Shown here piece after piece: positions 4,967 through 61,690 of a stretch of DNA of 64,000 bases (position 1 is its first letter; each line of letters begins with the position of its first letter). The notes beneath the pieces were generated by a model. It saw only the letters and a program-made list of their open reading frames with translations, was not told the origin of the DNA and made no database searches. The translations under genes and the position numbers were made by a program. This DNA comes from Thermoplasmatota archaeon (GTDB lineage Archaea > Thermoplasmatota > Thermoplasmata > UBA10834): contig JAHIRF010000005.1 of the NCBI GenBank assembly GCA_018818785.1, forward strand, positions 353,333 through 417,332. Reading direction: 5' to 3'.

Positions 4967-5016
4967 CTTGATACCCGTAGGTACAAGTTTCAATAGGTGA
5001 AGAAATCGGTATCAAG
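4967..5016. repeat. 9-bp inverted repeat with 32-base loop
   Basis: CTTGATACC (4967-4975) and GGTATCAAG (5008-5016) are exact reverse complements around a 32-base AT-rich loop, in the intergenic space between the subtilase promoter and the orphan sorting-tail ORF. It could be a regulatory element or a relic of a small mobile element; nothing else in the sequence decides between these. Confidence 0.35.
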
Positions 5017-5047
5017 GGGTTTGGATGTATCCGTCTGGCGTACCGGT

Positions 5048-5266
5048 TCAGCGGCGTCTCTTCATCGCGACGACCGCGATTCCGACGGCGCCGATCGCAC
5101 CGCCAGCGAGCAACAGGCCGAAGTAGCTGCCGAACTCAGGTATTTCGAATGTGAATGATACGTTCACCCATTGATAGGGTGCTGACGTGGCGATCGTGGA
5201 GTTGGGCGGTTGCTGTGCAGATTCAGGATCAAGAATCCTATGGCCGATGTGAGACATCTTATGCAA
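5048..5266 (-). pseudogene. Orphan PEFG-type C-terminal sorting tail (probable remnant of a surface protein)
   Basis: This 72-residue ORF (TTG at its 5' end) has no signal peptide or recognisable N-terminal domain. Its last 33 residues have the tripartite layout of an archaeal sorting signal: an IPEFG motif (about residues 42-46), a hydrophobic span of about 20 residues rich in Gly/Ala/Val, and a terminal KRRR. Such tails (PEF/PEFG-CTERM families) are normally the ends of long secreted proteins processed by archaeosortases. A tail with no body suggests the end of a decayed surface-protein gene. A genuine small membrane protein is the alternative. Confidence 0.5.
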
Positions 5267-5570
5267 GAGAATGATGCGTGACCTGATTATGAATGAATAG
5301 AATCAATTGACTGCTCAAAGCAATCTTTTCTTTCTCCACGATTGCGGGTGGTGCGGAATCAATTGTGATGGTTCGTGGGAAGAATCCCTGGTCCAATTTA
5401 CTGGGACGATGCCCTTCGGGACAATCCTTTTTGTAGGAGTTCAACATACAGTCTCAAAACCACAAATCACTCGGCGCCTCTGGCACTTCTGGACGCATTG
5501 ATTAGAGGCGGACCGCATAGACTGTGGAGAAGAAGACGATGAGCTGAAAACGGAAAAGGAGGCGAGAAAC
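5267..5570. other. Non-coding stretch upstream of the mttB-like gene
   Basis: About 300 bases with only short ORFs on either strand that show no family features. The upstream part is presumably the lost body of the sorting-tail remnant on the minus strand. The last 25 bases hold a good ribosome site (AAGGAGG, eight bases before the ATG) for the methyltransferase gene. I see no clear TATA element. Confidence 0.5.
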
Positions 5571-7019
5571 ATGGAGGGTATCAAGTGTGGACCCAAGCTG
5601 AAGGTTCTGACGGATGAACAGGTCGATGCGATTCACGAGGCTACGCTGAAGATTCTTGAGAAGACCGGCGTTAGGTTCGATAGCGAGAATGCTCTCAAAC
5701 GCCTCATAGCTGCCGGGGCAGTCATGCACCCGACCAGGAAGAACGTGCTTACATTCCCGAGGAGCATGGTCGAGGAATGTATCAAGAAGATCCCACACTA
5801 CGGGACCTACCTCGCGAGAGATCCAAAGAACGATGTTGAATTCGACGGGGAGACCACCTTCGCCCACTGCCTGGGCGGCAACCCGTTGATGAAGGACATC
5901 GACACGGGTGAACCGAGGATGTCCACTCTGAAGGACGTCGAGGATGCAACGAAGCTCATGGACGCGCTTCCCAACTGTCATACGATCTCCAATCTGGTGG
6001 TTGCTACGGACGTGCCACCAGAGATCCTTTCCATCAAGACGATGGAGGCCATGATCAAGAACACCAGCAAGTGCGTCTCCGGTTACGCACTGAACATACC
6101 GACCGTCGATGCGATGGTCAAGATGTGGGCCGCGGTCGCCGGCAGTATGGACGCGCTGATGAAGAGGCCTCTGTTCTCCGTGTACGGTTCGCCGAGCAGC
6201 CCGCTCACTTGGGACGAGCACGCTGCGGACGTCATGCTGAAAGGCGCGGAGTATGGAGCGTTCGTCGACATAGTGCCCTGCCCGATCTGCGGAGGCACGG
6301 CACCAATCACACTCAGTGGCGGTCTCGCGCAGCAGAACGCAGAACTGCTCTCCGGTGTCATGCTCATACAGACGGAGAGCGCGAAGATCCCGATGCAGTA
6401 CTCCGGCAGGTTGAGCATGCTCGACCTCCGAACGGGCAAGAACATCTGGGGAGTTCCCGAGATGGCTCTGGTATCCGCTGCGACGGTACAGATCGCTCAC
6501 AGGTACAACATGATCGCTGATGTGTACGGCGTCACCACCGATGCAAACGACTGGGGCATGCAGGTCGGACTAGAGAGGATGATGGCGGGGATGCTGCCGG
6601 CGATGGCAGGCGCGGACAATCTGTCCGGCATCGGCGGAGCATGGGACAATGCCGCGAGCTACGAGATGCTTGTCATTGACAACGAGATCTATGCAGATAT
6701 CTTCCAGGCGATGCGCGGGATATCCTTGGACGACAACAAACTCGCACTCGACATCATAGACAAGGTCGGTCCGATGGGCAACTACCTCGCACAGATACAC
6801 ACGATGAAGAACATGAAGGACATCCGCATATCGCCTCTGTACGACAAGCGCCCGGCGGACAAGGCGAGGAAGGATGGCATACGCCCGTTGCAGGACCTCG
6901 CGAGGGACGCGGCCAAGAAGATCCTGAAAGAGCACCAGCCAACTCCGTTGGACAAGGACCAGCTCAGGGAGTTGGAAAAGGTCGTGAAGGAGTCCGAGAA
7001 GATACTGATGAAGAAGTGA
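5571..7019 (+). CDS. MttB-superfamily methyltransferase, non-pyrrolysine type
   Basis: 482 residues, matching the MttB (trimethylamine:corrinoid methyltransferase) superfamily along its length. The opening (LTDEQVDAIHEATLKILEKTGVRF) is typical, as are the central Gly-rich TIM-barrel segments (GGTAPITLSGGLAQQNAE) and the late segment ending VIDNEIYADIF. Members with pyrrolysine read through an in-frame TAG. This ORF has none, so it belongs to the non-Pyl branch, which includes glycine betaine, proline betaine and carnitine demethylases. The substrate cannot be read from sequence. The usual partners (MttC-type corrinoid protein, MtbA-type methyltransferase, activating RamA) are absent nearby; the flanking genes are surface proteins. 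The start is fixed by AAGGAGG eight bases upstream. The ORF is intact and convergent with the next gene. Confidence 0.9.
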   Translation: MEGIKCGPKLKVLTDEQVDAIHEATLKILEKTGVRFDSENALKRLIAAGAVMHPTRKNVLTFPRSMVEECIKKIPHYGTYLARDPKNDVEFDGETTFAHCLGGNPLMKDIDTGEPRMSTLKDVEDATKLMDALPNCHTISNLVVATDVPPEILSIKTMEAMIKNTSKCVSGYALNIPTVDAMVKMWAAVAGSMDALMKRPLFSVYGSPSSPLTWDEHAADVMLKGAEYGAFVDIVPCPICGGTAPITLSGGLAQQNAELLSGVMLIQTESAKIPMQYSGRLSMLDLRTGKNIWGVPEMALVSAATVQIAHRYNMIADVYGVTTDANDWGMQVGLERMMAGMLPAMAGADNLSGIGGAWDNAASYEMLVIDNEIYADIFQAMRGISLDDNKLALDIIDKVGPMGNYLAQIHTMKNMKDIRISPLYDKRPADKARKDGIRPLQDLARDAAKKILKEHQPTPLDKDQLRELEKVVKESEKILMKK

Positions 7020-7062
7020 ACCATCCCTCACCGGTATCCCTGCAAACCCGTTCAAAAAACCC

Positions 7063-10000
7063 TTACTTCGTTTTCATCTTTCGAACGAACAGGTAGCCCG
7101 CTGCGCCTATCACTGCGACGATTCCCGCGACCGCGCCGATGACCGCCCAAGGACCGACGGGGCCATTGAGACTGAATACACTCGTCTCGATGGAGAACAT
7201 GATGGTAGTGGTCTGTGAATTGTTCGCTTCGTCATACAGTGTGATGACCAACTCGTGTTCGCCATCCGCCAGGTCCGTCAGTGTGATGCCATCGATCATC
7301 GCGGTGATCGGATCGCCGCTATTCAGTTGGCAGAGAATGATGCATGGGCCACTCATTTCGTCGGAGCAAGTCCATGTGATATCGATCATGTTCGATGTGG
7401 ATCTGAAGCCCGATGCTCGATCAGGGGTCACCACGGGTTCATCCGTGTCAACCTTCACGACAATCGATTTAACGGGCTCGACATTCCCTGAGAAATCGAC
7501 GGAGTAATACTCCAGGAGGTGGACGCCATCTCCCAGGATTATCTCCGAAGAGTAGGTTGACCATTCCTCGGAATCGATCCTGATGAACGTCATGTAGACG
7601 TCGCTCGCATTATCTACTCCTGTGAAGCTGACAGTGACCGGCGAGACATACCATCCTCTTCCGCCTTGAGTTCCGTTCTTCGAGAACTCGGTGTGCGGAG
7701 CCTCGGCATCGATTCCGAATGAAATCTCTTGTGCATCCTCTATGTTGCCCGCGATATCGACAGAATAGAATTCGATCGTATGGAGCCCTTCGCCTTCGAC
7801 GGTGAACGGTGCTGAATACTCCTGCGCTGCATCACCGTCTAAGCTGTAAAACATGCCAGCAACGCCGCTCAATCCATCATACGCTGATAGGTTCACCTCC
7901 ACTGGTGAGCGGTACCAGTTGAAGTGTCCCCACGTTCCTGACAAATCGCAGCTCGTCACGGGCGCAGTGCCATCGATCATGACCTCGATTGATTTCGACG
8001 ATTCGCTGTTGCTGTAGCAATCCACGGAGTAGTACTCGACATGGTGAACCATGTCTCCGAGGAGAATGATTGGGAATTCGTAGACATACCATTCGCCACC
8101 GTCGACTCTGCAATATGTCACGGGGTCGGGATCGAAATCGTCCATCGCGTAGAGAGACACCGCGACCACGCCGGTGTACCAGCCGTCAAGACCCTCTGAA
8201 CCGTTCCATATCACGAACGTGAACGGGGCCTGGTTGTCATAGACCTCCACTGTGATAGATGCACTATCCGTGCTGCCCGATGAGTCGCGCACCTCCAGAC
8301 CTACGGTGTACGTCCCGATCGTGGAATACGAGTGCGTGACCATCTTATCCGTGGACCAATCCACATCCCAAACACCATCACCCTCCCAATCCCATCGAAC
8401 TTCCAATGAGGACGCAAGATCGATATCATCAGTGCACCCAGTAGCATCGAACTCGAATATCGTGGACACATTTCCCGATGACGGCGTCACGGTAACTTCT
8501 GCGACGGGAGGCTGATCCAGGATATCGGACGACATCGAGAATCTGACGAAGGGTGCGCCATATGGCATCAATCCGACCCTGTCCCATTCATTCTCCAGAT
8601 AGCTATGGGCAACCTGAGTGTTCGACCACTCCCACATATCGATCGGACCGACGAATGCCAATGTGCGCGTCAGTGGATCAACGAATATCTGGTCCTCGAA
8701 ATCTGTCCACATGGGCTCGGAATAGATGCAGGTCATCGACTCGTATATCTCGTTGATTACACCAGTTCCGGCGTTTTCCAGGAATAGTTGCTCCTCTGCA
8801 GGCCACTCGAAGAAGAGCGATTCTCCTTCAGACAGATTGAACGCACCAGGGACATTGTGATACCGCACATACTCGCCATATCTCGCAGATCCGGGAGTCA
8901 GGCTCAGCCGCTCCTCATATTCGTAGGCATCATAATCGGAATATGGATGCTGAATGCTCGAAGGCACGTAGTCTTGACACACAGGCTCCCAGACCCAGCA
9001 AGGATCGCCCCCGACAGATGATGCGAATGCATACATCGCATAATCGACCACCGTATCGATATCGATGTTCGATGATTCAGGACCGATCTCCGCGTGCATC
9101 GAGAAGTCCTCGAACCAGTACTCTGAATCATCCATCCACGCGTCGTGCAGCCATCTTGCCATGAGTGCCTCGAATCCCCATGATACGATCTGCTGGTTCA
9201 CGACCACGGTGTCCCCTACACGCTCAGCCGTGAGCTGGTGCATGAACACCTGCAACGGATACTCGTACATGCAGTAGATGTCTAGTCTATCATTCGCTTC
9301 AGAATCGATGTAATCCCACCATGCGAACCTGACGGATTCGCTTTCTGCAGACCACCAGGATGCGAAGTCATCCCACGCATCCACGGGCATGCCCAAGACG
9401 GACATAGCTGCAGTCTGGTCGAGAATCATCTCACCGTCGAATATCGTGATCCATCCGTCGTTGTTGTCCGCAGCGACCGGTGATAAGATCTCCAGTTCTG
9501 CATCGGTGCCGTATGTGAAGTACCAATCGAGCGTGACGTTTCCACCACTTGTGGTCCCAAGGTTCGGGACGAACAAAGGCTTCTCAATCATGTTGATCTC
9601 AGGCATGTTCCTTCCAGTTATGTCCAAGCGCATGTTGGAATATGTCCAGACGTTGCCCTCCTGAAATCCATCGACCCAGTCATAGATGTAGGGATAACTG
9701 TCACTCCATGTGATCTCGTCGCTCCTCTTCTCGTACCATTCACCGAAAGGAACGTTGAACATGTCGTACCATCTGTATTGCATGGACCTCTCGTCTCCAT
9801 AGCCTGGAAGGACTGTCACCACAAGCGAATCGAATGCCGATTGATCATCTTTGTCGGTGACGGTGAGCGTCACATCGATGTTGCCATCCGAATAGAAGCA
9901 TGTGACCACGGACTGCCCGAACATGTCGTACGAACCATCGGGTCCGTCGAAGGACCATGTCCAGTTCAGAGATTCGATCGAGTCATCGGGGTCAATTGCG

Positions 10001-11808
10001 CTCCCGCTGAATACTACTGGAACGCCTTCATTCACAGTGACATCCTCACCTGCATAGACATCCATCGGACCAGTATATTCGTTGAGCTCGATCGACAGGT
10101 AGAACCATGGTCCTGCAGGGGACATGTTGGGATTCTCATGCATATCTGGATAGTTGGTCCAGGTCATCTCGTCGTACGCCACCAGTGTGTACGGGTACCA
10201 GAGGACTACATACGGAGAATCGTGGTACAGAATATCCTGCATCTCGTACACGATATCCTGTCGGATCGCATCATCCGTCTCGGCCAACTGCTCTTCGTAC
10301 AATTGATCATAATATGAGTTTGAGTAGAACGAATCGGACCAAGCGGTCCAATCGGTAGGAGATTCCGGTATCATATCCGTGGTCATAACGGATAGCGCGA
10401 AGCTGGGGTTAGCAGATCCTCCATATCCGAAGTCCCACCCCCAAATGAACAGGTCCAGACTGCAACTAAGCCAGTAGTTGTAGAGCATGCCCTCTGATAT
10501 AGCGGTCACTGAGGTAGAGATGCCTATTGATGCTAGGCAGTCCGATATCAAGTTCGCTGCGGCAATATCGGCGGTCTCATCGTTCCGGACATGAATAGTG
10601 AAATCCAATGGAACACCGCTCGTGACATTCTCCCTGATGCCGTCGCTATCGATGTCGATATATCCTGCCGCGTCCAACAGTGAGGCTGCAGCATCTAGGT
10701 CGAATGGCAACTCAGATTCATCCGGGATATCTAAGTGCCAATACTTCATCGTCTCAGGGAGCAGCGTCTCCCCTACTCCGGCATGACCGTCCAAGATCGC
10801 GTCCACCATATATGTCTGGTTCACGCACATGGCAATTGCTTGCCGCACTGACCTGTTCGTCGTCTCGAGGTTATCACTTGCCTTATAGAAGTTGGTCCTG
10901 ATCTCCTCCGAGGCGCAGTTCACGCCAAGCTCAATGATACTCCCAGATTTGATGGACTGGCCTCCGATCCCCGGAGTTGCGACGAGAGACTCCCAGTTCA
11001 TGGCGGGAACATCATATGCTAGGTCTATCGAACCAGCCATGAGTGAATTGATAATTCCTTCCGGAGTTGAGAACATCTGGAAGAGTAATGTATCGAATTT
11101 TGCAGCTCCCAGATGATACATGGCCCAACTGGTCATGCGGACATAATTATTGTATACGAACTCATCCAGTATGAACGGTCCTGAGCCGATCGGGCCATCA
11201 GGGAAGTATGCTGAACTCAAGACATCGACATCGCTCAGGATACTGGGGGGCACGTTGCTCCATATATGCTCTGGTAGTATGGGGATCATCGAGTAAGGGA
11301 GGTCCGCCGTTGGAATGCTTGTGGTTATCTGCACGGTGTTGCTGTTCAGAGCGATGACCTCGGTCACATCGGTCAAGAGTCTGATGTACAAGGAGCACTC
11401 AGCTGGGTTGGACAGGATCAAGTTGTAAGTGAATGCGACATCGTCCGCGTGAACCTGCTCACCGTCGTGCCAGTAGACGTCGTCGTCTATTACGAATGTC
11501 CAGACCAGCTCCGATTCGTCGCAATCCCATGACGATGCCAGCATGGGCGCAGGCATCATATCCGAATCGACCGATGTCAATGATTCGTACATCAGGGATA
11601 GTATGGTGTGGGAATTCCGCAAGACCGCCCTGAACGGATTCAACGTATCGACGCCACCAGTTGTTCCCACGATGAACATCGCAGCGTCTGCGCCTTCCAC
11701 GTCATCCGCGATGTATAGCAGGTAGGCAAATGGCGAAATCACCAATGCAACGATCAAAAGAGATACCTCTACGATTCTGAACTTTTCAGCGTTAGCGGGC
11801 CAACCCAT
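7063..11808 (-). CDS. Giant membrane-anchored peptide-type solute-binding protein fused to PKD and Ig-like domains
   Basis: 1581 residues. An N-terminal hydrophobic segment (about 12-32) is followed by a family-5 extracellular solute-binding domain (about 45-600; TLNPF near the start, then VWTFVIDDDVYWHDGEQVHADDVAFTY-type region). A PKD domain follows (about 605-695). Next is a Trp/Tyr/Asp-rich region (about 700-1095) that I do not recognise, a second PKD domain (about 1097-1190), three or more Ig-like modules of the YYSVDxxGN type (about 1192-1540), and a C-terminal membrane helix (about 1553-1575) ending KMKTK. Family-5 binding proteins deliver peptides or other solutes to ABC permeases, but no permease or ATPase genes are nearby. 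The architecture suggests a cell-anchored receptor or S-layer-associated protein. Composition is strongly acidic, as in secreted archaeal proteins. The gene is monocistronic. Confidence 0.88.
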   Translation of the reverse strand: MGWPANAEKFRIVEVSLLIVALVISPFAYLLYIADDVEGADAAMFIVGTTGGVDTLNPFRAVLRNSHTILSLMYESLTSVDSDMMPAPMLASSWDCDESELVWTFVIDDDVYWHDGEQVHADDVAFTYNLILSNPAECSLYIRLLTDVTEVIALNSNTVQITTSIPTADLPYSMIPILPEHIWSNVPPSILSDVDVLSSAYFPDGPIGSGPFILDEFVYNNYVRMTSWAMYHLGAAKFDTLLFQMFSTPEGIINSLMAGSIDLAYDVPAMNWESLVATPGIGGQSIKSGSIIELGVNCASEEIRTNFYKASDNLETTNRSVRQAIAMCVNQTYMVDAILDGHAGVGETLLPETMKYWHLDIPDESELPFDLDAAASLLDAAGYIDIDSDGIRENVTSGVPLDFTIHVRNDETADIAAANLISDCLASIGISTSVTAISEGMLYNYWLSCSLDLFIWGWDFGYGGSANPSFALSVMTTDMIPESPTDWTAWSDSFYSNSYYDQLYEEQLAETDDAIRQDIVYEMQDILYHDSPYVVLWYPYTLVAYDEMTWTNYPDMHENPNMSPAGPWFYLSIELNEYTGPMDVYAGEDVTVNEGVPVVFSGSAIDPDDSIESLNWTWSFDGPDGSYDMFGQSVVTCFYSDGNIDVTLTVTDKDDQSAFDSLVVTVLPGYGDERSMQYRWYDMFNVPFGEWYEKRSDEITWSDSYPYIYDWVDGFQEGNVWTYSNMRLDITGRNMPEINMIEKPLFVPNLGTTSGGNVTLDWYFTYGTDAELEILSPVAADNNDGWITIFDGEMILDQTAAMSVLGMPVDAWDDFASWWSAESESVRFAWWDYIDSEANDRLDIYCMYEYPLQVFMHQLTAERVGDTVVVNQQIVSWGFEALMARWLHDAWMDDSEYWFEDFSMHAEIGPESSNIDIDTVVDYAMYAFASSVGGDPCWVWEPVCQDYVPSSIQHPYSDYDAYEYEERLSLTPGSARYGEYVRYHNVPGAFNLSEGESLFFEWPAEEQLFLENAGTGVINEIYESMTCIYSEPMWTDFEDQIFVDPLTRTLAFVGPIDMWEWSNTQVAHSYLENEWDRVGLMPYGAPFVRFSMSSDILDQPPVAEVTVTPSSGNVSTIFEFDATGCTDDIDLASSLEVRWDWEGDGVWDVDWSTDKMVTHSYSTIGTYTVGLEVRDSSGSTDSASITVEVYDNQAPFTFVIWNGSEGLDGWYTGVVAVSLYAMDDFDPDPVTYCRVDGGEWYVYEFPIILLGDMVHHVEYYSVDCYSNSESSKSIEVMIDGTAPVTSCDLSGTWGHFNWYRSPVEVNLSAYDGLSGVAGMFYSLDGDAAQEYSAPFTVEGEGLHTIEFYSVDIAGNIEDAQEISFGIDAEAPHTEFSKNGTQGGRGWYVSPVTVSFTGVDNASDVYMTFIRIDSEEWSTYSSEIILGDGVHLLEYYSVDFSGNVEPVKSIVVKVDTDEPVVTPDRASGFRSTSNMIDITWTCSDEMSGPCIILCQLNSGDPITAMIDGITLTDLADGEHELVITLYDEANNSQTTTIMFSIETSVFSLNGPVGPWAVIGAVAGIVAVIGAAGYLFVRKMKTK

Positions 11809-26985: not shown

Positions 26986-28119
26986 ATGAGCCAATCACCA
27001 GATAGGATTATTTCCGTGGATGGGCATCGGCTTGTCATGACGGTATCCGTCGTCGTGGGCACCAGACCCGAGATAATCAAGATGGCTCCGGTCTACTTCG
27101 CGCTCAAGAAGGCGCGAATGAAGCCGAGACTGGTGCATTCAGGACAGCATTACGATTACCAGATGTCGCAGGTGTTCTTCGACGAGCTCGAGCTGCCGGA
27201 ACCGGACTCGTTCCTCAGCATCGGCTCCGGAACGCCAGGGAAGCAGACCGGGGAAGCGATCATCAAGTTCGAACAGGAGTTCGTAGACCACGATGCCGAT
27301 TGTGTCCTTGTCGAAGGAGATACCAACACGGTCCTTGCAGCCGCACTCGCTGCCATGAAGAACGGGATCAAGGTTGGCCATGTGGAAGCCGGGCTCAGAA
27401 GCTACGACCTCAGAATGCCCGAGGAGCTCAACAGGCGGCTCACGGACCATGCATCCGACTACCTGTACGCGCCGACAAAGGACTCGGTAGACATCCTCAG
27501 GAATGAGCATGTCTGGGGCAAGGTGTATCGCACTGGTAACACGGTCATAGACGCCACGGTGATGTATCTCCCGAAGGCACTCAAGAGATCCAAGGTGATG
27601 TCACAGGTCCCTGGGGACGGGTTCGCCCTCGCAACGCTGCACAGGGCGGAGAACGTCGACGACCCGAAGACCTTGAAGGGCCTGGTCGAGGTACTCAAGG
27701 GATCACCTCTCCCCGTCGTGCTCCCGCTGCATCCGAGGACCGATCTGCGACTCCAGGAGAGCGGTTTGAAGGGCGAGGTCGAGTCATCCGAGAACATCAA
27801 ACTCCTCCCACCTGCTGGCTATTTCGACCTCTTGACCCTGATGAAACATGCTTCGTTCATATTGACTGATTCTGGCGGTATTCAAGAGGAAGCATCTTCT
27901 CCTGTGTTGAAGAACCGGGTATTCGTGATGAGGCTCTCCACTGAACGTCCCGAGGCCGTGAGGGCGGGATACTGCACGATGGTCGGGACGAATCCTCGCA
28001 CGATCCTGCGCGTGCTGCGGGCGCACATGAAGGACCCGAAGACGAGGTTCGCCCCGTGTCCATATGGGAAGGGCGATGCCGCGGAGAGGATTGTCGGTTC
28101 CCTGAGACGCGACCTGTGA
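26986..28119 (+). CDS. wecB: Second UDP-N-acetylglucosamine 2-epimerase
   Basis: 377 residues from ATG 26986, or 360 from ATG 27037; the family N-terminus (VSVVVGTRPEIIKMAP) favours the latter. Landmarks are GQHYDYQMSQVFFDEL, EGDTNTVLAAALAAM, HVEAGLRS, LHRAENVDDP and LTDSGGIQEEASS. It makes UDP-ManNAc from UDP-GlcNAc. It is clearly diverged from the copy at 23439-24527, so the two are not a recent duplication. The transposon right end lies immediately upstream and may have replaced the original promoter. The UDP-ManNAc-type dehydrogenase at 36774 could use its product. Confidence 0.88.
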   Translation: MSQSPDRIISVDGHRLVMTVSVVVGTRPEIIKMAPVYFALKKARMKPRLVHSGQHYDYQMSQVFFDELELPEPDSFLSIGSGTPGKQTGEAIIKFEQEFVDHDADCVLVEGDTNTVLAAALAAMKNGIKVGHVEAGLRSYDLRMPEELNRRLTDHASDYLYAPTKDSVDILRNEHVWGKVYRTGNTVIDATVMYLPKALKRSKVMSQVPGDGFALATLHRAENVDDPKTLKGLVEVLKGSPLPVVLPLHPRTDLRLQESGLKGEVESSENIKLLPPAGYFDLLTLMKHASFILTDSGGIQEEASSPVLKNRVFVMRLSTERPEAVRAGYCTMVGTNPRTILRVLRAHMKDPKTRFAPCPYGKGDAAERIVGSLRRDL

Positions 28120-28184
28120 GCCCGGAACCAGGCAACCCTATTATAGCCCCTAAGTCTTGGGCAGATTGTCAAGGAGATGAGTGA

Positions 28185-28691
28185 TTGAGTGGCGGGCCGA
28201 AAAAATGGTTCATGCTCCAGATGTGGAGGTTCCAGCAGATATCGCAGATCGCGACCCTGGCGCTCCTAGCGCTCAACCTCGCGCTCCAGATATACAACTT
28301 CATGAACTGGCGCGGGTCCATATTCTCGTCTCCGTACACCGCGGTCCCATTCATAACACTGGTACTCGTCGCCTGCATCTGGGCCTTCGCGATCTTCTGG
28401 GACATGCGGATGAAGATGTGGCGTGAGCAGATGGCCGTCGTGATGGAGAGGAACCCGTACGCCAAGGAGCGGATGTATTCCAAGGAACTCGTCGTGTACT
28501 CCATGCTCTGGCTGCCGTTGCTGGAGAACCTTGGCGAGAAGGACCCCAAGTTAAAGGAGAGTGCTGACCATCTCAGGGCCTGGCTCAAGCAATCGTATGT
28601 GGACGACAAGTCATTGAAGGGCGAGGTCGACGACATACTGAAATACATGGGCGCCAAGGACGACGACATATTCGGCCTGCTCAAGAAGTGA
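28185..28691 (+). CDS. Small two-helix membrane protein of unknown function
   Basis: 168 residues from a TTG start after GGAGATGAG. Two hydrophobic helices (about 20-42 and 52-75) are followed by a charged cytoplasmic domain with amphipathic helices, ending in DDIFGLLKK. I recognise no family. It lies between the second 2-epimerase gene and the RMD-like gene, all on the plus strand, so it may be part of the glycan operon, for example as a membrane scaffold (inference). Codon pattern is like that of its neighbours and the ORF is clean. Confidence 0.7.
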   Translation: MSGGPKKWFMLQMWRFQQISQIATLALLALNLALQIYNFMNWRGSIFSSPYTAVPFITLVLVACIWAFAIFWDMRMKMWREQMAVVMERNPYAKERMYSKELVVYSMLWLPLLENLGEKDPKLKESADHLRAWLKQSYVDDKSLKGEVDDILKYMGAKDDDIFGLLKK

Positions 28692-28780
28692 GCGCCGAAC
28701 CCCGAAAGATTGACTAGGGTCATGTCTATACGAGTGCCAGGACTGTTCCCGGGGGAGCGCGTTCCGAGGAGGCAAGAGGC

Positions 28781-29734
28781 TTGAAGATATTAGTCACGGG
28801 CATCACGGGCTTTGCAGGGGCACATCTCGCAGCCCTTCTGAAACAACAGGGCGGGGCGGAGATCCACGGCACCAAGCACGCCTCCGCGAGGATGAGCCCC
28901 GTATTCGATTCGTCAGGCATCGTCATGCACGAGCTCGACATGACCGACATGGCTGGAGTGTCCGCCCTGGTCATATCGTTGCGGCCTGATATCATCTATC
29001 ACATGGCCGCGTTCGTATCCGTCGCTCGCTCGTTCGAAGAGCCTGCGAGGACCTTCGAGACGAACGTTGTCGGCACCATTCATCTCCTTGAAGCGGTCAG
29101 AAAACACTGCCCGGAAATCAAAGTCGTCATCCCTGGTTCAGCCGAATCATACGGAAAGGTGGATCCTGAATCGATGCCTATCAAAGAATCGCAACCGTTG
29201 AGGGCCAGGCACCCGTACGGCATGAGCAAGGCCTCGCAGGAGATGGTCGGGCTTTACTATCACGAGGCTTTCGGCCTCAAGACATATCTAACGCGTTCCT
29301 TTCACTATACTGGGCCTGGACAGCCGGCAGGTTTCGTGTGCTCCGATTTCGCGAAGCAGATATCGGAGATAGAGGCCGGGAAAAAGGAACCCGTGATATC
29401 CGTGGGTAACCTGAAGGCGAAGAGGGATTTCCTGGACATCAGGGACGTGGTACGATCGTACACCGCTATCGCGGACAAAGGTAGGCCAGGTGCGATATAC
29501 AATGTGTGCAGAGGTGAATCCGTGGCTATATCTGACATCCTCGACATGCTCGTGGGATTGTCCTCGAAGGAGATATCCATCAAGGTCGACCCTGCCAAGC
29601 TCAGACCGGTCGACGTCCCGGACTTCGTAGGCGACAACGCTCTTCTGAAGGGGGACACGGGATGGACGCCAGAGATCGAGCTGAGCCGTAGCCTCGGGGA
29701 TGTGCTGTCTTTCTGGAGGGGGAACCCGGCATGA
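28781..29734 (+). CDS. GDP-mannose dehydratase/reductase family protein (RMD-like)
   Basis: 317 residues, TTG start after GGAGG. Family landmarks are GITGFAGAHL (7-16), GSAESYGK (about 121-128), HPYGMSKASQE (about 143-153), then YTGPGQPAGFVCSDFAKQI and [19 protein letters not shown]. The set matches GDP-4-keto-6-deoxymannose reductases (RMD) and GMD-like dehydratases. RMD would yield GDP-D-rhamnose; a role in a GDP-deoxyhexose route is also possible. It overlaps the next gene, a 3-dehydrase, by four bases (ATGA). The tight coupling implies both act on the same nucleotide sugar. Confidence 0.82.
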   Translation: MKILVTGITGFAGAHLAALLKQQGGAEIHGTKHASARMSPVFDSSGIVMHELDMTDMAGVSALVISLRPDIIYHMAAFVSVARSFEEPARTFETNVVGTIHLLEAVRKHCPEIKVVIPGSAESYGKVDPESMPIKESQPLRARHPYGMSKASQEMVGLYYHEAFGLKTYLTRSFHYTGPGQPAGFVCSDFAKQISEIEAGKKEPVISVGNLKAKRDFLDIRDVVRSYTAIADKGRPGAIYNVCRGESVAISDILDMLVGLSSKEISIKVDPAKLRPVDVPDFVGDNALLKGDTGWTPEIELSRSLGDVLSFWRGNPA

Positions 29735-30966
29735 GCGCGAAGGGCCAGAAGTTCGTTCCCGTCGGGGACTTCAGACTCATGGAGGACGAGAAGGCTGCGA
29801 TCATGGAGGTACTCGATAAGGGGAGGATCTCCGAGTGGCAGAAGGTCGCGGAGTTCGAGCGAGTGTTCGCCAAGTACGTGGGCTCGAAGCATTGCATAAC
29901 GACAAGCTCCGGTACCTCCGCATTGATCCTATCGCTCCTTGCACTCAGATACGACGGCAGGTGGCCGAGGTTCAAGCATGGCGGCAAGGTCATAACCTCT
30001 CCTGTATCGTACATCGCCACCAGCAATGCACTGTGCCTTTCGAACCTCGAGCCCGTGTACGTCGATATCGACCCCAGGACATTCAAGCTCGACATATCAT
30101 CTCTTGAGCGTCTCCTCGAAGAGGAGGGTGGCGATACGTTCGCCGGGATGCTGCCCGTCCATCTGATGGGATATCCGAATGATATGGACCGGATCACGAA
30201 GCTCGCGAACGAGTACGGACTCGCGATCGTGGAGGATTCCGCACAAGCGCACGGCTCGAGATACAACGGCCGCAGGACCGGCTCGATCGGGATCATGGGC
30301 ACCTTCTCTTTCTTCATAGCGCACAACATCCAGGCTGGGGAGATGGGATGCGTCACAACGAGCGACGAGAAGCTCCTGAAGCTGATGAGGCAGTTGAAGG
30401 CGAACGGTCGCGTGTGCGACTGTCCCGTGTGCACCCGCTCTGCTGGGATTTGTCCACACCTGGGTCTCGCGGACGAAGGTGAGGACCTTGACCCTAGGTT
30501 CACGCACGAGTACATATCATACAATTTCAAGACTATGGAGTTCCAGGCAGCGCTGGGAGTATGCCAGATGAAGAAGGCCGACTGGATTTTCCAGAGGCGG
30601 CTCGATAATGTGAAGTACCTCAACGACAAGCTGAAGAAGTTCTCACATGTGCTCGACCTTCCATTGTTCAGCGAGGATGTGGGCTATCTCGCATACCCAC
30701 TCGTGCTCAAGGAAGGATGCGGCATATCGCGCCTGAATGCGCGGGAGGGTCTGAGGCAGAAGGGCGTGGAGAACAGGCCTTTGTACGGCTGCATCCCGAC
30801 CCAGCAACCAGCGTACGCCGCCTTCAAGGAAAGGTACGAGGGCAGATTGCCGAACGCGGAACGGGTAGGCAGGGACGGGTTCTACATCGGCTGTCATCAA
30901 TACCTCGAGAGGGACGACCTCGATCACGTTGTCGAAGCATTCGAGGAGGTCTTCGGCGGGCTCTGA
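29731..30966 (+). CDS. PMP-dependent sugar 3-dehydrase of the DegT fold, E1/SpnQ-like, with cysteine cluster
   Basis: 411 residues of the DegT/DnrJ/EryC1 fold (SSGTSAL at 59-65; D169 in IVEDSAQAHG). At the position of the catalytic lysine the protein has His198, in SFFIAHNIQAGE. In the family, His here marks the dehydrases (ColD, and E1/SpnQ/RfbH) that use pyridoxamine phosphate to remove a 3-hydroxyl. A cysteine cluster C229-x-C231-x2-C234-x6-C241 follows, at the place where E1-type enzymes bind a [2Fe-2S] centre; the downstream THEYISYNFKTMEFQAALG segment also matches E1-type proteins. ColD lacks the cluster. The expected product is a 3-deoxy or 3,6-dideoxy sugar. No E3-type reductase gene is in the window, so electrons must come from elsewhere. 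Confidence 0.85.
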   Translation: MSAKGQKFVPVGDFRLMEDEKAAIMEVLDKGRISEWQKVAEFERVFAKYVGSKHCITTSSGTSALILSLLALRYDGRWPRFKHGGKVITSPVSYIATSNALCLSNLEPVYVDIDPRTFKLDISSLERLLEEEGGDTFAGMLPVHLMGYPNDMDRITKLANEYGLAIVEDSAQAHGSRYNGRRTGSIGIMGTFSFFIAHNIQAGEMGCVTTSDEKLLKLMRQLKANGRVCDCPVCTRSAGICPHLGLADEGEDLDPRFTHEYISYNFKTMEFQAALGVCQMKKADWIFQRRLDNVKYLNDKLKKFSHVLDLPLFSEDVGYLAYPLVLKEGCGISRLNAREGLRQKGVENRPLYGCIPTQQPAYAAFKERYEGRLPNAERVGRDGFYIGCHQYLERDDLDHVVEAFEEVFGGL

Positions 30967-30993
30967 TTCCAGCGTCACCGGGTGTGCTTATTC

Positions 30994-32211
30994 ATGAATG
31001 TCGCTATCGTCGTCTGGCATCTGGATGTGAAGGGCGGGACACAACGTCAGGCCCTCGAGCTCGCCAGACATCTCAAGTCAAAAGGGGACGAGGTCACGCT
31101 GTACTGCGCGCATCTCGATCGCGACTCATGCTACTCGGAACTCCTCGAAGGGTTGGAGATCGTTTCTTTGCATGGCTCCTCCAGGCAGCGCCATATGGGA
31201 AAGCTGCGCTGGATATCGTATCCTGTGGAACCTTTGTTCGTCGGGGATGAGCGCAGACTCGCGCGTATGATCGGGCATCATGACGTGATCAACTGTCACG
31301 AGCACAGAGCCTACAGGACCGCATGCTTCCACAGGAAGGCTTCCGGCACGCCGATCGTATGGATGATGAACGACTTGCCTGCGAGCTTCAAGAAGCCTAG
31401 AAGACCGAGGAATCTCAATGCGGTGAAGGACCTCGCACACTACCTGCTCATAGGGGGGCTCATCGGCCGTTGGGTGGATCTGCGCAGGGTGAAGACGATC
31501 GACCGCATCGTGGTGCTCGACAGGCTCAACCACGGCCTGCTATTGAACAACACCGGCATGACGAGCACCGTCATAAGGAGCGGCCTGGATCTCGCCAAGT
31601 TCGGCTTCGTCGAGCGCTCCGCTGCCGAAGCGACCGGCCCGTTCACGATATTCACGATAGGCATATTCTTCCCGCACAGGCGGTTCGAGGATATGGTGTC
31701 TGCCCTCGGGATTCTCAAGAAAGACGGTCGAGACGTGCGCCTCCGTTTGGCTGGTCTCGAATCAAAGGACCGCGTGTACTCTGCAAGAGTGAGGGCGCTC
31801 GTTAGATCGCTGGAACTCGAGGACCGAGTGGAGTTCCTAGGTGCGATAAGCGAGGAGCAGCTGGTGAGAGAATATTCCACAGCAGATGCGTTCGCGTTCC
31901 CACACAGTCCACAGACATGGGGCTTGGTGGTGTTCGAAGCGATGGCCAGCGGCGTTCCTGTCATCGTCTCTAGAGGTTGCGGTGCGTCCGAGATGCTGGT
32001 CGATGGCGACACGGCTATGCTCGTGGAACCCGCACGGCCTGACGGATTCGCAACGGCGATCAGGAAATTGATGGACGATCCCTCCCTCAGGAACATGCTG
32101 AGCGTATCCGGGAGGAGGTTCGTCGAGGGGAACATACGCTGGGATCTCTACGCCGACAAGATGATGGATGAGTTCACGCGAGTTTGCGGAAACAAGGAGA
32201 GGTGGCCATGA
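30994..32211 (+). CDS. GT4-family glycosyltransferase
   Basis: 405 residues from ATG 30994, supported by GGTG upstream; an in-frame GTG at 30982 adds four residues. The N-terminal loop is WHLDVKGGTQRQALELARHL. The C-terminal Rossmann half carries FTIFTIGIFFPHRRFEDMVSALGIL and the E-x7-E-like region WGLVVFEAMASGVPVIVS. It adds a sugar to the lipid-linked glycan. It lies 27 bases after the 3-dehydrase gene and overlaps the next glycosyltransferase by four bases, so it belongs to that operon. It may use the dideoxy-sugar donor made by the preceding genes (inference). Confidence 0.86.
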   Translation: MNVAIVVWHLDVKGGTQRQALELARHLKSKGDEVTLYCAHLDRDSCYSELLEGLEIVSLHGSSRQRHMGKLRWISYPVEPLFVGDERRLARMIGHHDVINCHEHRAYRTACFHRKASGTPIVWMMNDLPASFKKPRRPRNLNAVKDLAHYLLIGGLIGRWVDLRRVKTIDRIVVLDRLNHGLLLNNTGMTSTVIRSGLDLAKFGFVERSAAEATGPFTIFTIGIFFPHRRFEDMVSALGILKKDGRDVRLRLAGLESKDRVYSARVRALVRSLELEDRVEFLGAISEEQLVREYSTADAFAFPHSPQTWGLVVFEAMASGVPVIVSRGCGASEMLVDGDTAMLVEPARPDGFATAIRKLMDDPSLRNMLSVSGRRFVEGNIRWDLYADKMMDEFTRVCGNKERWP

Positions 32212-33365
32212 GTCCTGGGAAGACATGCATGGTCACTTCTGCCCGGGCGCCTCCGCAGATCGGTGGCACTCCCACAGTCATGTACGAGCTGCTACGGCAT
32301 TTTCCGAAGGATTCTGTATTGCTCGTGACCAAGCACCAGAGCGGTCGGACCTCCGAAGATGACCGTGTGCTCGACATGCCGACCGTGAAGGTCACGAGGG
32401 CCGGCGCGTTCATCTATCCGACGATGTTCCAGCTGCTGCTCATGCCATTGACATTCGTGGAGATGTTGTTCGCTGCGAGGCGTTCACGCCCCCGATGCAT
32501 ATTCGCGGTCTTCCCTTCTCTCGACTTCCTGTTGTGCTCGCTCGTGCTCGGAAGGCTCATGAACGTATCCGTGTTCGTCTACCTGCACGATTGCATCGTC
32601 GAGACCGCGGGGAACGCCTTGGAGAGGTTGTTTTCTGATAGAGCTGAGAGATGGACCTTCTCGAAGGCATCCAAAGTCTACTCCATGAGCGAACCCATGA
32701 AGAAATTCTACGAAGCGAAAGGCCTTCGGACCGAGGTGCTCCCACACGGACTGGATCCGAGTCTGGAACGACTCTCCATGGCAAGGACGCGTAGCGGTCC
32801 GCTCAAGGTTGGCTTCTCAGGCGGCATCTACGAGAACAACCTCCAGGCGATATCCGACCTGCTCGAGGCGAAGAAATCCTCGGGCGATTCGTTCGAGTTC
32901 CATCTTACATGCCCTGCACAATCGGTCGAACTCCTGAAGAGCAGAGGACTTTCGGATTCGATCGATTCGATCAGCACCCTACCAACACGGGATGAAGTCA
33001 TCGATTTCCTGTCCGGATGCGACCTTCTGTTCATACCGATGAGTTTCGAGTCCAAGGTCAGGGAGGATCTGCTGACGATATTCCCGACCAAGGTGACAGA
33101 TTACTGGCTCGCTGGAAGACCGATCCTGGTATACGGTCCAAAGGAGTACTCGTTCGTCCCATTAGCGGAGACGGACGGATATGCAGCCATCGTCTCGGAA
33201 CGATCTCCTGAGCGACTCGCGGAGGCTATCAATGCCTTGGCGAATTCCCAGGAGACTGCGGATCGGCTCGCTGCCGCATCTAGTGAGATGGTCCGGAGGC
33301 ACGATGGTTCCATGATCGCGAAGAGGCTCATGGGGGACCTCGGGCTCATGCGAGCAAAGGGTTGA
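32208..33365 (+). CDS. GT-B glycosyltransferase
   Basis: 385 residues from ATG 32208, which overlaps the previous stop (ATGA) and follows GAGAGGTGG. The fold is GT4-like: an early PPQIGGTPTVMYELL loop, a central short hydrophobic stretch (about 75-120), and KVGFSGGIYENNLQAISDLLEA (about 195-216). The donor-site region is YWLAGRPILVYGP rather than a classical E-x7-E, so donor handling may differ. Three genes (29731, 30994, 32208) overlap or nearly touch, consistent with one transcript. Acceptor and donor are unknown. Confidence 0.8.
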   Translation: MSPGKTCMVTSARAPPQIGGTPTVMYELLRHFPKDSVLLVTKHQSGRTSEDDRVLDMPTVKVTRAGAFIYPTMFQLLLMPLTFVEMLFAARRSRPRCIFAVFPSLDFLLCSLVLGRLMNVSVFVYLHDCIVETAGNALERLFSDRAERWTFSKASKVYSMSEPMKKFYEAKGLRTEVLPHGLDPSLERLSMARTRSGPLKVGFSGGIYENNLQAISDLLEAKKSSGDSFEFHLTCPAQSVELLKSRGLSDSIDSISTLPTRDEVIDFLSGCDLLFIPMSFESKVREDLLTIFPTKVTDYWLAGRPILVYGPKEYSFVPLAETDGYAAIVSERSPERLAEAINALANSQETADRLAAASSEMVRRHDGSMIAKRLMGDLGLMRAKG

Positions 33366-33411
33366 GATAGGTTGAAGTCGCTTGAAGTGTGGATAGTAGG
33401 AGGGACACGGC

Positions 33412-35416
<2,005 letters not shown>

Positions 35417-35497: not shown

Positions 35498-36070
35498 TCA
35501 ATGGACTTTCCTGATGAGCCAAAAGACGGCTTCCATGAAATTCCTGGCGACGAAATCCGGTTTGACCGAGGCGCTGTCGACCTCCGGATCTTGCGCGGAC
35601 ATCCCAGGTTCCGGGACCAGGATGCTCTTTGCCCCTATCTCGAGCGCCACCTCTATGTCCGCGATCCTGTCCCCGATGATGACGGACCTCTTCAAATCGA
35701 TCCGATGCTTCTCAGAACCCTCGAGGAGCATCTGGGATGTTGGCTTGTGCCCATTGTCTCCGCCGTTCTCTGGGGTGGGGATGTGGGGGCAATATAAGAT
35801 GTCCCTTATCTTCACGCCGTTCTGGGACAGTATCTCGAGGATGCGGTCGTGTATCTCACCCTGCTCATCCTCGGTGAACTGTGACCTGCCATTATCCGAT
35901 TGAGTTGTGATTATGAAGACTGGCAGGCCTGTATGGTTCAGTCTCTTGAGCCCGTCCAGAACGGTCGGGATGAATTCAGGATCTCTATTCCCGTCCTGGT
36001 CGAGCCTAGCAAAACACATCGTACCGTCACGGTCAACGAAGACCGCGGGCCCATTGCCCTCATCCATCAT
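35498..36070 (-). CDS. HAD-superfamily phosphatase, GmhB/histidinol-phosphatase type
   Basis: 190 residues. Motif I is VFVDRDGTM (nucleophile Asp and acid/base Asp at about 12 and 14). Motif II is FIITTQSDNGR in place of the common TNQ. Cysteine/His positions in YCPHIPTPENGG recall the zinc loop of GmhB, though only partly. Motif IV is IIGDRIADIEVALEIGAKSILV. It probably removes phosphate from a sugar phosphate. The ATG lies about 30 bases from a TATA element, so the transcript is short-led. A decayed copy of its 3' end lies 200 bases upstream. Confidence 0.85.
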   Translation of the reverse strand: MMDEGNGPAVFVDRDGTMCFARLDQDGNRDPEFIPTVLDGLKRLNHTGLPVFIITTQSDNGRSQFTEDEQGEIHDRILEILSQNGVKIRDILYCPHIPTPENGGDNGHKPTSQMLLEGSEKHRIDLKRSVIIGDRIADIEVALEIGAKSILVPEPGMSAQDPEVDSASVKPDFVARNFMEAVFWLIRKVH

Positions 36071-38165: not shown

Positions 38166-39116
38166 CTATTGGATCAGCGGTTCCCACCATGATTTGTTGT
38201 CTAGATACCATTCGACTGTCTCGCGCAAGCCATCATCGAACTTGAACTTCGGGCTCCAGCCCATCTCCTTGATCCTCTCCCATGTGAGCGAGTATCTGAA
38301 GTCATGACCTGGGCGGTCCGTGACATATGTTATGAGGCTCTCTGGCTTGTTCATGTACTTGAGGATCATCTTGGCGACCTCTATGTTGGGGACCTCGTTG
38401 CTGGAGCCGATGTTGACGACATCGCCTGCCTTTCCTTTCTGAAGAACGACATCTATCGCCCTGCAGTTGTCCTCTACATGCAGCCAATCCCGGACATTCA
38501 GCCCCTTCCCGTAGATGGGTAGAGGTTGATCGTTCAGGGCTTTGATGATCAAGACTGGTATGAGCTTCTCGGGGTATTGGAACGGTCCGTAGTTGTTGGA
38601 TGAGCGTGTGACGACCACGTTCATGCCATAGGTCCTGACATAGGATCGTGCGAGGAGTTCTCCGCCGGCCTTGCTTGCGGAATATGGTGATGATGGGTCC
38701 AGGTTGTCTAATTCAGAGAACGAGCCGGATACCGTGGAGCCATAGACCTCGTCCGTTGATATCTGGACGAACCTCTTGATGTCCCTGCGTCTAGCCTCTT
38801 CCAGGAGGGTGAATACGCCGAGGACATCGGTCCTTACGAAGTCCTCAGGGGATGTTATGCTCCTGTCTACGTGGCTCTCAGCTGCGAAATTGACTATCTG
38901 GTCGCAATCCTTCATCGCTTGCTCGACGACCTTCTTGTCGCATATGTCTCCCTTGACGAACTCTATGCGGTCCTTGATCTCCTCCAGGTTCTCCAACCTG
39001 CCTGCATATGTGAGCTTGTCGAGGACGACTATCTTCTTGTCGGGGTGCTCTTTGAGCATGTGTCTAACGAAGTTGCAGCCGATGAACCCGGCTCCGCCTG
39101 TTATGAGTATCTTCAT
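38166..39116 (-). CDS. rmlB: dTDP-glucose 4,6-dehydratase
   Basis: 316 residues. Landmarks: ITGGAGFIGCNFVRHML (4-20), NFAAESHVDRSI (about 76-87), STDEVYGS (Thr/Asp/Glu catalytic set, about 117-124), PYSASKAGGE (Tyr/Lys), TRSSNNYGPFQYPEKLIP. It converts dTDP-glucose to the 4-keto-6-deoxy form, step two of dTDP-L-rhamnose synthesis. It is cotranscribed with the rmlC-like gene six bases upstream. Its 3' end is duplicated at 36396-36478. Confidence 0.95.
   Translation of the reverse strand: MKILITGGAGFIGCNFVRHMLKEHPDKKIVVLDKLTYAGRLENLEEIKDRIEFVKGDICDKKVVEQAMKDCDQIVNFAAESHVDRSITSPEDFVRTDVLGVFTLLEEARRRDIKRFVQISTDEVYGSTVSGSFSELDNLDPSSPYSASKAGGELLARSYVRTYGMNVVVTRSSNNYGPFQYPEKLIPVLIIKALNDQPLPIYGKGLNVRDWLHVEDNCRAIDVVLQKGKAGDVVNIGSSNEVPNIEVAKMILKYMNKPESLITYVTDRPGHDFRYSLTWERIKEMGWSPKFKFDDGLRETVEWYLDNKSWWEPLIQ
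38176..38258. repeat. 83-bp direct repeat, copy 2
   Basis: Second copy, inside the 3' end of the intact rmlB gene; see the copy at 36396-36478. Similarity falls sharply at its right end (38259 onward). Confidence 0.85.
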
Positions 39117-59539: not shown

Positions 59540-59863
59540 GCCACCGACTCGGCCTATCTGGCTAAGCGTCTCAAGCTATCAGTTCTGATATGATTTCGGG
59601 ACGCGGTGGAAAACGAGGTATCAAGTACATCTCCAATGATTCCGTGCAGGGAGTCGGAAATCAGAATAAACGCAATCGTATCCCTCCGAACTCCCTGTTG
59701 ATGATTGGTGCAAATATGAATTCAGGCAAAAGGACGAAAATGGCAGAGTTGTTGTCACCCTGCTCGATAGTCAGGTGAATGTTTGGAAGCACTTACATGG
59801 AGGACATACTTGATAGCCAAAGCAGCGATTCGAAGCCCTGCCTGACCCGTGGAGGTAGACCGA
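59540..59863. other. Spacer ending in a strong ribosome site
   Basis: 324 bases without a convincing gene. The final bases carry GGAGGTAG about six bases before ATG 59864. Confidence 0.45.
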
Positions 59864-61690
59864 ATGCGAATGGTCATTGAGAAAGAAAGACTAGTCCTAT
59901 TTGCTGGCTTCATCAGTTGTTTGTTCGTTCTTATCGCTATAGTGGTGGTTGCACTGGCTCCGCCAGCAAGCCATTACGAGATATCAATATACGAGGTGTA
60001 TCCTCCTTACCTGTGGCTGTTTCTGACAATTCCCCTGATGATGCCATTCATCATCTTAATGCTAGTCGGACGAAATGCACTCGCGTACTACGTGCCATTA
60101 TTCGCAGGAAGTCTCTTATCGATAACGATACTGCTTTCAATTCCGATTCTCAGAGGATACGCGTTCTACAGCGGCGGAGATGCTTTTACACATCTAGGAT
60201 ACGTAAAGGATATCCAAGTCTCGGGGCATTTCGCAAGTAACAACCTCTACCCCATAATTCATATTCTCATCACCAGCGGATCGTTTGCTTCGGGTGTAGA
60301 TGCTGAGCCATTGATGTCTTTCATTCCGCTTATCTTCAGCCTCTTTAGTCTGGCCTCAGTCTTTCTGTTGGCTAGAGCACTTACGAAGGATTTGTGGCGT
60401 TCGGCGGTAATATTTGCGTTTGCTATGGTCTTTCTCTTCAACACCGGGGGCCTACAAACAGTACCTTCTGCAGAAGCATTCTTTTTAATCCCCATCTCTA
60501 TCTTCTTGTATGTCGAGAGCAAGAGCAAGCGAGCATCTAGGGCACATGGATTCTCACTCACTCTGATAGTCTTCCTCATTCTCTTGCCATTCTTTCATCC
60601 GGAGCCTACTCTTTTCATGCTTGTTATTCTAATCGTATTTGCTTTAGTGATTCGCAGGCGCAATGTAGTGCGGACCGCGCGAATTGAGGTTAGTCGCTTG
60701 ATTCCAAGGAACAACTCCACTCCTGCTTTGATACTCATGGTCGCCTTTTTTGCATGGTTCACAAGCTGTGTTGCGTTCGGCAATACCGTGCGTACTGTGT
60801 ATAACTCGTTGATACTCAACCTAGGAACTTCTCCCGTAAGTTCGTACACGAGTATGTTCGATACTTATGACGTAAGCCCTGCAATAATCGCCAGACTCCT
60901 TATATTGACTTATGGCGTACTCATAATCTGCTTTTCGCTAGCTGCAATCTCAACAATCCGAATCGTAGTGTCTGCGTTTTCTGGCAAAAAAGTGTTGTTA
61001 GGTGTAGGAACATTTAGTGTATTATTCATCATCTTCTCCGGACTCGCAGCATTGTTCATGGTGGCGGATCTCATAATTGGAAATCGCACGATGAAGTACC
61101 TGCTACTCGTATCATCCATGCTGGCTGGCTTGGAGGTGTACAGACTGCGCTTCGCAAAAGCTAGACCGTCAAGATCATGGACGAGACCAGCAATTGCAGT
61201 GAGCCTCGTCATCATGATGGCGACAGCCTCGGGCTTGGCAGTTGGGGTGCTTTATCCGTCTCCTCTGATTAATAGGACTAACTGGCAAGTCACGGATTCC
61301 GAATTTGATGGAATGACTTACTACTTCCTTCACAGAAACAGTTCAATGCTCACATTGGAGATTGCGATGAGTCAGTCGAGGTTCAAGGATGCAATTCTCG
61401 GTAGCAGTGTCGAATCTCCAAATATAAGGTATGGTGAAGCGGCTCGGCCACTTGATCATTTCGGATACAATGTCAGCAATTATTTTGGCGATTCCTATTC
61501 TGATGACGTCTACTTGATTACCAATGCGTTAGCGGAACAGCTTTATCCTTCTGCTTACCCAGAATTTCCACAGTTCTGGCGATTCACCCCCGACGATTTC
61601 TCGGAATTGACAAGCGATCCAACTGTCGATCTCATTTATGATAATGGAGGATTCTCTTTGTATCTAATCAAGAGTACTTCATTCGATTGA
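59864..61690 (+). CDS. Polytopic membrane protein, GT-C or polymerase-like
   Basis: 608 residues from ATG 59864, fixed by GGAGGT just upstream. About 11-12 hydrophobic helices fill residues 8-480, with a non-hydrophobic C-terminal domain (about 490-608). An early outer loop (YSGGDAFTHLGYVKDIQVSGHFASNN, about 106-131) carries Asp and His in an arrangement like the first loop of GT-C glycosyltransferases. These use lipid-linked donors outside the membrane. I do not recognise a specific family. A polymerase (Wzy) or GT-C transferase is the likely class given its place in a glycan island. Confidence 0.7.
   Translation: MRMVIEKERLVLFAGFISCLFVLIAIVVVALAPPASHYEISIYEVYPPYLWLFLTIPLMMPFIILMLVGRNALAYYVPLFAGSLLSITILLSIPILRGYAFYSGGDAFTHLGYVKDIQVSGHFASNNLYPIIHILITSGSFASGVDAEPLMSFIPLIFSLFSLASVFLLARALTKDLWRSAVIFAFAMVFLFNTGGLQTVPSAEAFFLIPISIFLYVESKSKRASRAHGFSLTLIVFLILLPFFHPEPTLFMLVILIVFALVIRRRNVVRTARIEVSRLIPRNNSTPALILMVAFFAWFTSCVAFGNTVRTVYNSLILNLGTSPVSSYTSMFDTYDVSPAIIARLLILTYGVLIICFSLAAISTIRIVVSAFSGKKVLLGVGTFSVLFIIFSGLAALFMVADLIIGNRTMKYLLLVSSMLAGLEVYRLRFAKARPSRSWTRPAIAVSLVIMMATASGLAVGVLYPSPLINRTNWQVTDSEFDGMTYYFLHRNSSMLTLEIAMSQSRFKDAILGSSVESPNIRYGEAARPLDHFGYNVSNYFGDSYSDDVYLITNALAEQLYPSAYPEFPQFWRFTPDDFSELTSDPTVDLIYDNGGFSLYLIKSTSFD

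Follow-up and report, generated by a model that had tools for sequence, protein, structure and literature searches.

To our knowledge, PMP-dependent sugar 3-dehydrases are either ColD, which acts on a GDP sugar and lacks a cluster, or E1/SpnQ, which act on CDP or dTDP sugars and carry one. A gene from a Thermoplasmatota archaeon raises the question of whether cluster and nucleotide always pair in this way. The gene, P0001 (29731–30966, + strand), lies in a 64,000-nucleotide stretch of contig JAHIRF010000005.1, here called the window, and encodes a predicted DegT-fold, His-type (PMP) sugar 3-dehydrase with a four-cysteine insert. A sequence-only reading had proposed an archaeal, E1-type enzyme within a GDP-deoxyhexose operon. 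We consider it reasonably probable that P0001 acts as a 3-dehydrase on GDP-4-keto-6-deoxymannose and carries an Fe-S cluster that ferredoxin reduces; the cluster, the donor, the reaction and the product are all predictions.

P0001 and its gene context

The P0001 ORF is intact and encodes 411 aa. Its start overlaps the stop of the upstream gene (28781–29734, + strand) in an ATGA, bearing out the coupling that had been read from the sequence. The upstream gene encodes an RMD-type GDP-4-keto-6-deoxymannose 4-reductase, whose best solved relative is the GDP-6-deoxy-D-lyxo-4-hexulose reductase 2pk3 (1.1e-77). Both genes belong to a same-strand run (26986–35416) that comprises a wecB-type epimerase, a small protein of no assigned family (28185–28691; no Pfam or NCBIfam match), the RMD-type reductase, P0001, a GT4-type glycosyltransferase (30982–32211, + strand; PF00534, PF13439), a glycosyltransferase-like protein (32184–33365, + strand; PF13439, PF13579), gmd for GDP-mannose 4,6-dehydratase (33412–34467, + strand; TIGR01472, 487.8 bits, above the cut-off of 415), and an Fcl-like, GDP-fucose/colitose-synthase-like enzyme (34469–35416, + strand; NF047922, 275 bits, below the cut-off of 500). 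A TnpB/Cas12f1-like ORF (PF07282; 25681–26937, + strand) also sits inside the sugar cluster and may be a trace of mobility.

Three further features of the window lie outside this run. A 1581-aa protein (7063–11808, − strand) combines an SBP_bac_5 solute-binding domain with PKD and Ig-like repeats; such a surface architecture is unusual. An MTTB-family methyltransferase-like gene (PF06253; 5571–7019, + strand) has no in-frame TAG and is open under the standard code. A 613-aa ORF (59849–61690, + strand) has no Pfam match.

The GDP-linked pathway that had been proposed from this one locus recurs across the family. At least one of GMD, Fcl, and RMD lies within 6 kb at 38 of 56 loci (GMD at 28, a GDP-fucose-synthase-like gene at 25, an RMD-type reductase at six), frequently in the order GMD–dehydrase–Fcl, and NCBIfam models applied to the sugar-dehydratase-like neighbors identify 28 gmd and 20 fcl genes. 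The other 18 loci have none of these neighbors within 6 kb, and several of them have short flanks. The GDP context of the family is firm, and a Gmd product of the GDP-4-keto-6-deoxymannose type is well supported by context as the P0001 substrate. P0001 very probably strips the C3 oxygen from a GDP-linked sugar.

Could the main substrate of an enzyme of this type instead be another nucleotide sugar, linked to CDP or dTDP or of the GDP-heptose kind? The window also encodes a dTDP-glucose 4,6-dehydratase (38166–39116) and a GmhB-like HAD phosphatase (35498–36070), CDP-glucose genes occur at three family loci (L019, L020, and L023), and GDP-heptose 3-dehydratases exist (PMC10440746). Across the family, however, the genes that accompany the dehydrase are gmd, fcl, and rmd, and each of the three loci with CDP-glucose genes also carries a genuine RfbH bearing the E1 motif. 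These loci serve as natural controls in which both enzymes are present and each has a nucleotide set of its own, and a CDP pathway for P0001 was rejected because the RfbH there is separate. We regard a different main substrate as quite improbable. The clusters at two of these loci, L019 (labelled Methanofastidiosum, an archaeon) and L020 (Peptococcaceae, a bacterium), look near-identical by match score and gene layout, a similarity that either recent transfer or mis-binning could explain.

The catalytic histidine and the cysteine insert

P0001 matches PF01041 (DegT/DnrJ/EryC1/StrS) over the whole protein (284.6 bits; cut-off, 19.8). It scores 227.8 bits with the RfbH model NF011936, under the curated cut-off of 423, and clears none of the NCBIfam equivalog cut-offs. 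Among solved sequences, E1 is the closest (8.5e-58), followed by ColD (1.3e-50). An AlphaFold2 model built with 49 sequences (pLDDT 94.7, pTM 0.92) matches the solved structures of perosamine synthase (Z 50.6), E1 (49.4), and ColD (49.2). We therefore rejected the fold as a discriminator of activity, since a lysine enzyme ties here with E1 and ColD.

His198 (codon at 30322–30324, + strand), a putative catalytic base, takes the place of the aminotransferase lysine, as the sequence-only reading had recognized. It aligns with E1 H220 and ColD H188, the first histidine of FYPAHHI in E1 and of FYSHHI in ColD. Because this column is the residue altered in PDB entries 3bb8 (E1 H220K) and 3b8x (ColD H188N), the equivalence to the catalytic histidine is direct. 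Several observations would fit a C4-aminotransferase, perosamine-synthase-like and working with a histidine, or a protein with no catalytic role: GDP-perosamine synthase is the best structural match, if only by a tie, N199 and an upstream stretch, EDSAQAH, are similar to what lysine aminotransferases have, and SpnQ can transaminate when it lacks a reductase (PMC8987622). Yet histidine replaces lysine in all 49 aligned homologues, and the tree sets P0001 apart from the sampled lysine enzymes, among which perosamine synthase was not included. The purifying conservation is strong, which speaks against a loss of function, and we consider either variant highly improbable.

The second hallmark is a CxCx2Cx6C insert (Cys229–Cys241, CDCPVCTRSAGIC; 30415–30453, + strand), a putative Fe-S site that follows a conserved Gly at 226; the insert is common to E1 and P0001 and missing in lysine aminotransferases. 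Cys229, Cys231, Cys234, and Cys241 are where they had been placed from the sequence, and together with His198 they are invariant in 49/49 aligned homologues that share a mean pairwise identity of 56%, so their presence is not due to chance. In the same alignment, Cys388 is the only further fully invariant cysteine and N199 is likewise unvarying, while position 230 (Asp in P0001), flanked by Cys229 and Cys231, is taken by nine different residues in all. In the structural model the cysteines sit in blocks of mean pLDDT 95, 88, and 79.

The E1 motif is said to have been given by Agnihotri in 2004 as C-X57-C-X-C-X7-C, which E1 residues 193, 251, 253, and 261 fit. The claim that the cysteines occupy the E1 site with a different spacing and one extra residue holds in its first part: Cys229, Cys231, and Cys241 fall in the same alignment columns as E1 C251, C253, and C261. 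The second part needs amending. The position of E1 C193 corresponds to P0001 residue 171, which is Ala or Ser, never Cys, in all 49 sequences; Cys234 is therefore likely to be a relocated ligand that replaces E1 Cys193 rather than an additional one. By residue alignment, E1/RfbH proteins have GRDCxC...C in the insert and EDxC upstream, whereas the P0001 family has GRxCxCxxCxRxxxxC and, upstream, EDS/T/A-A/S.

Comparison with characterized and neighboring systems places P0001 between known types. E1/RfbH (PDB 3bcx; Salmonella RfbH, L099) shares its DegT fold, its histidine, and the CxC...C columns of the insert, but is only ∼31% identical, lies in a separate clade, lacks Cys234, has Cys at position 193, and comes with CDP rather than GDP genes and with an E3. 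Two Streptomyces RfbH-like proteins (L098 and L101), taken as proxies for SpnQ, are likewise of the His type and have cysteines in their insert, but have a dTDP-sugar operon context and follow the E1 layout of EDNC plus CxC...C instead of CxCx2Cx6C. ColD (PDB 2gms) shares the catalytic histidine and a GDP pathway context (GMD plus an Fcl/ColC-like enzyme), but relies on glutamate and lacks the cysteine cluster. A protein encoded by Solidesulfovibrio magneticus pDMC1 (WP_148208558.1), annotated only as a DegT aminotransferase, is of the His type, carries CxCx2Cx8C in the same insert, and adjoins a GDP-L-fucose synthase gene, akin to the context of the P0001 family; it differs in its longer last spacing, shares 34.6% identity, and forms a deep branch outside the family.

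CxCxxC...C patterns can also bind zinc. The four cysteines might thus hold a structural metal of this kind in an enzyme with a ColD-type mechanism, in which the intermediate is hydrolyzed and glutamate recycles PMP. ColD carries out exactly this reaction on the same substrate, GDP-4-keto-6-deoxymannose, without a cluster (PMC8987622), so the chemistry does not depend on one; GDP-heptose enzymes offer a further precedent (PMC10440746), and no dedicated reductase was found in 18 family genomes. Against this, three of the four P0001 cysteines lie where E1 has its own in the shared insert, while ColD has none, and a clade of the P0001 family and ColD alone is rejected (p-AU 0.007). We consider a ColD-type mechanism unlikely, and P0001 probably works like E1/SpnQ, whose chemistry is described in PMC8987622.

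Phylogeny and distribution of the family

In a 62-row tree that includes sampled lysine aminotransferases and leaves out GDP-perosamine synthase, the P0001 family forms a single clade (support 100/99). E1/RfbH and ColD together form another, apart from it (100/97), and the sampled lysine enzymes a third (99/96), consistent with the expectation that phylogeny would keep P0001 away from lysine-type aminotransferases. Two proteins branch just outside the family: the Solidesulfovibrio protein and L093 (6010–7089 of a viral contig), a DegT protein of the His type (SHN) that lacks the cysteine motif. L010, which has the histidine but not the cysteines, takes an intermediate position with weak support, and support is also weak (83/22) for joining all the main His clades. 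The assignment to the E1 type is not supported: P0001 falls outside the E1/RfbH clade, and the P0001 family plus E1 alone is marginally rejected as a clade (p-AU 0.044), in addition to the absence of Cys at the fourth E1 ligand position. By the sequence tests run, P0001 is in neither the E1 nor the ColD family, and its own family forms a third clade among the sugar 3-dehydrases of the His (PMP) type. The tree does not show in which direction the cysteines were gained or lost.

The description of the enzyme as archaeal also proved too narrow. P0001 relatives at ∼50% identity occur in two same-family genomes and in more genomes of the phylum, and the genome collection holds at least ∼50 loci at 46–58% identity, below which the matches listed fall abruptly to ∼32%. 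By record title, many of them MAG labels, the archaeal relatives come from Thermoplasmata, Bathyarchaeota, Nanoarchaeota, Lokiarchaeota, and methanogens, and the bacterial ones from Nitrospirae, Planctomycetota, Chloroflexi, Bacillota, Omnitrophota, Margulisbacteria, and Spirochaetes; other lineages are named as well. Bacteria make up the majority of relatives among the matches listed. Since homologues come from many phyla of both domains, the family is not confined to archaea but widespread in both, and it is apparently undescribed. On our reading of the names, it resides mostly in anaerobic lineages. Methanobrevibacter cuticularis DSM 11139 is a named strain with a member.

P0001 itself is closest to a protein from a Nitrospirae MAG, L011 (100/94), not to those of the two same-family archaea. 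L011 carries the same RMD–dehydrase gene pair as the window, which makes lateral transfer of the pair likely. Members also occur on viral-classed contigs: on IMGVR_UViG_3300028920_000029 (4977–8111) the gene is arranged as GMD–dehydrase–Fcl-like, and on a second contig, L092, it (5992–7188) adjoins ORFs resembling terminase subunits.

Electron supply and the predicted pathway

The observation that no E3-type reductase lies near P0001 holds genome-wide: the E3 architecture was not found in the window's assembly (94.5% complete), where Fer2 and FAD_binding_6 domains occur at separate places. Nor was an E3 partner (a Fer2+FNR protein) found in 18 family genomes, some of them incomplete. There, a Salmonella E3 query matches 13 genomes through its flavin-reductase part alone (query residues 106 onward) and has no match in the other five. 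FNR- or E3-like families are absent from the most frequent families of the remaining neighbors at the family loci. The window's genome does encode several 66–67-residue frames with Fer4 motifs. SpnQ can be driven by either ferredoxin or flavodoxin, each with its reductase (PMC8987622), which makes ferredoxin, by analogy, our best guess for the electron donor of P0001.

In the pathway that we favor, with P0001 as a cluster-bearing 3-dehydrase, PMP in the DegT fold would form a ketimine with the C4 ketone of GDP-4-keto-6-deoxy-D-mannose supplied by the local Gmd. His198 would abstract a proton, the C3 hydroxyl would leave, and a 3,4-ene intermediate would result. An Fe-S cluster on the CxCx2Cx6C insert would pass electrons, probably from cellular ferredoxin rather than an E3, reducing this intermediate to GDP-4-keto-3,6-dideoxymannose and regenerating PMP. 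The ATGA-coupled RMD-type enzyme would then reduce C4; without epimerization this would give the D-arabino sugar, so that the predicted product is GDP-3,6-dideoxy-D-arabino-hexose, or GDP-tyvelose. Alternatively, the Fcl-like enzyme may make GDP-colitose. The local glycosyltransferases would place the sugar on a surface glycan. In work on C. jejuni heptoses, C4-reductases together with the ColD-type dehydratase yielded GDP-3,6-dideoxy-D-arabino- and D-lyxo-heptose (PMC10440746). A literature search on colitose in archaea found nothing on the P0001 family, and one on GDP-tyvelose found no papers in the collection searched.

More tentatively, the family could be a third PMP/Fe-S deoxygenase lineage, mostly of anaerobes, that runs on ferredoxin with GDP-4-keto-6-deoxymannose, has its fourth ligand moved to the insert loop, and in this archaeon reaches GDP-tyvelose directly with an RMD-type reductase, without CDP-paratose; we hold this broader proposal as a possible but doubtful one. 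The GDP context and the rearranged four-cysteine site of the family break the known pairing of nucleotide and cluster. Experiments on the family can address whether the cluster and the nucleotide have had separate evolutionary histories and what powers deoxygenation where an E3 is missing. It also leads to the prediction that 3,6-dideoxy sugars would occur in the surface glycans of many uncultured anaerobes.
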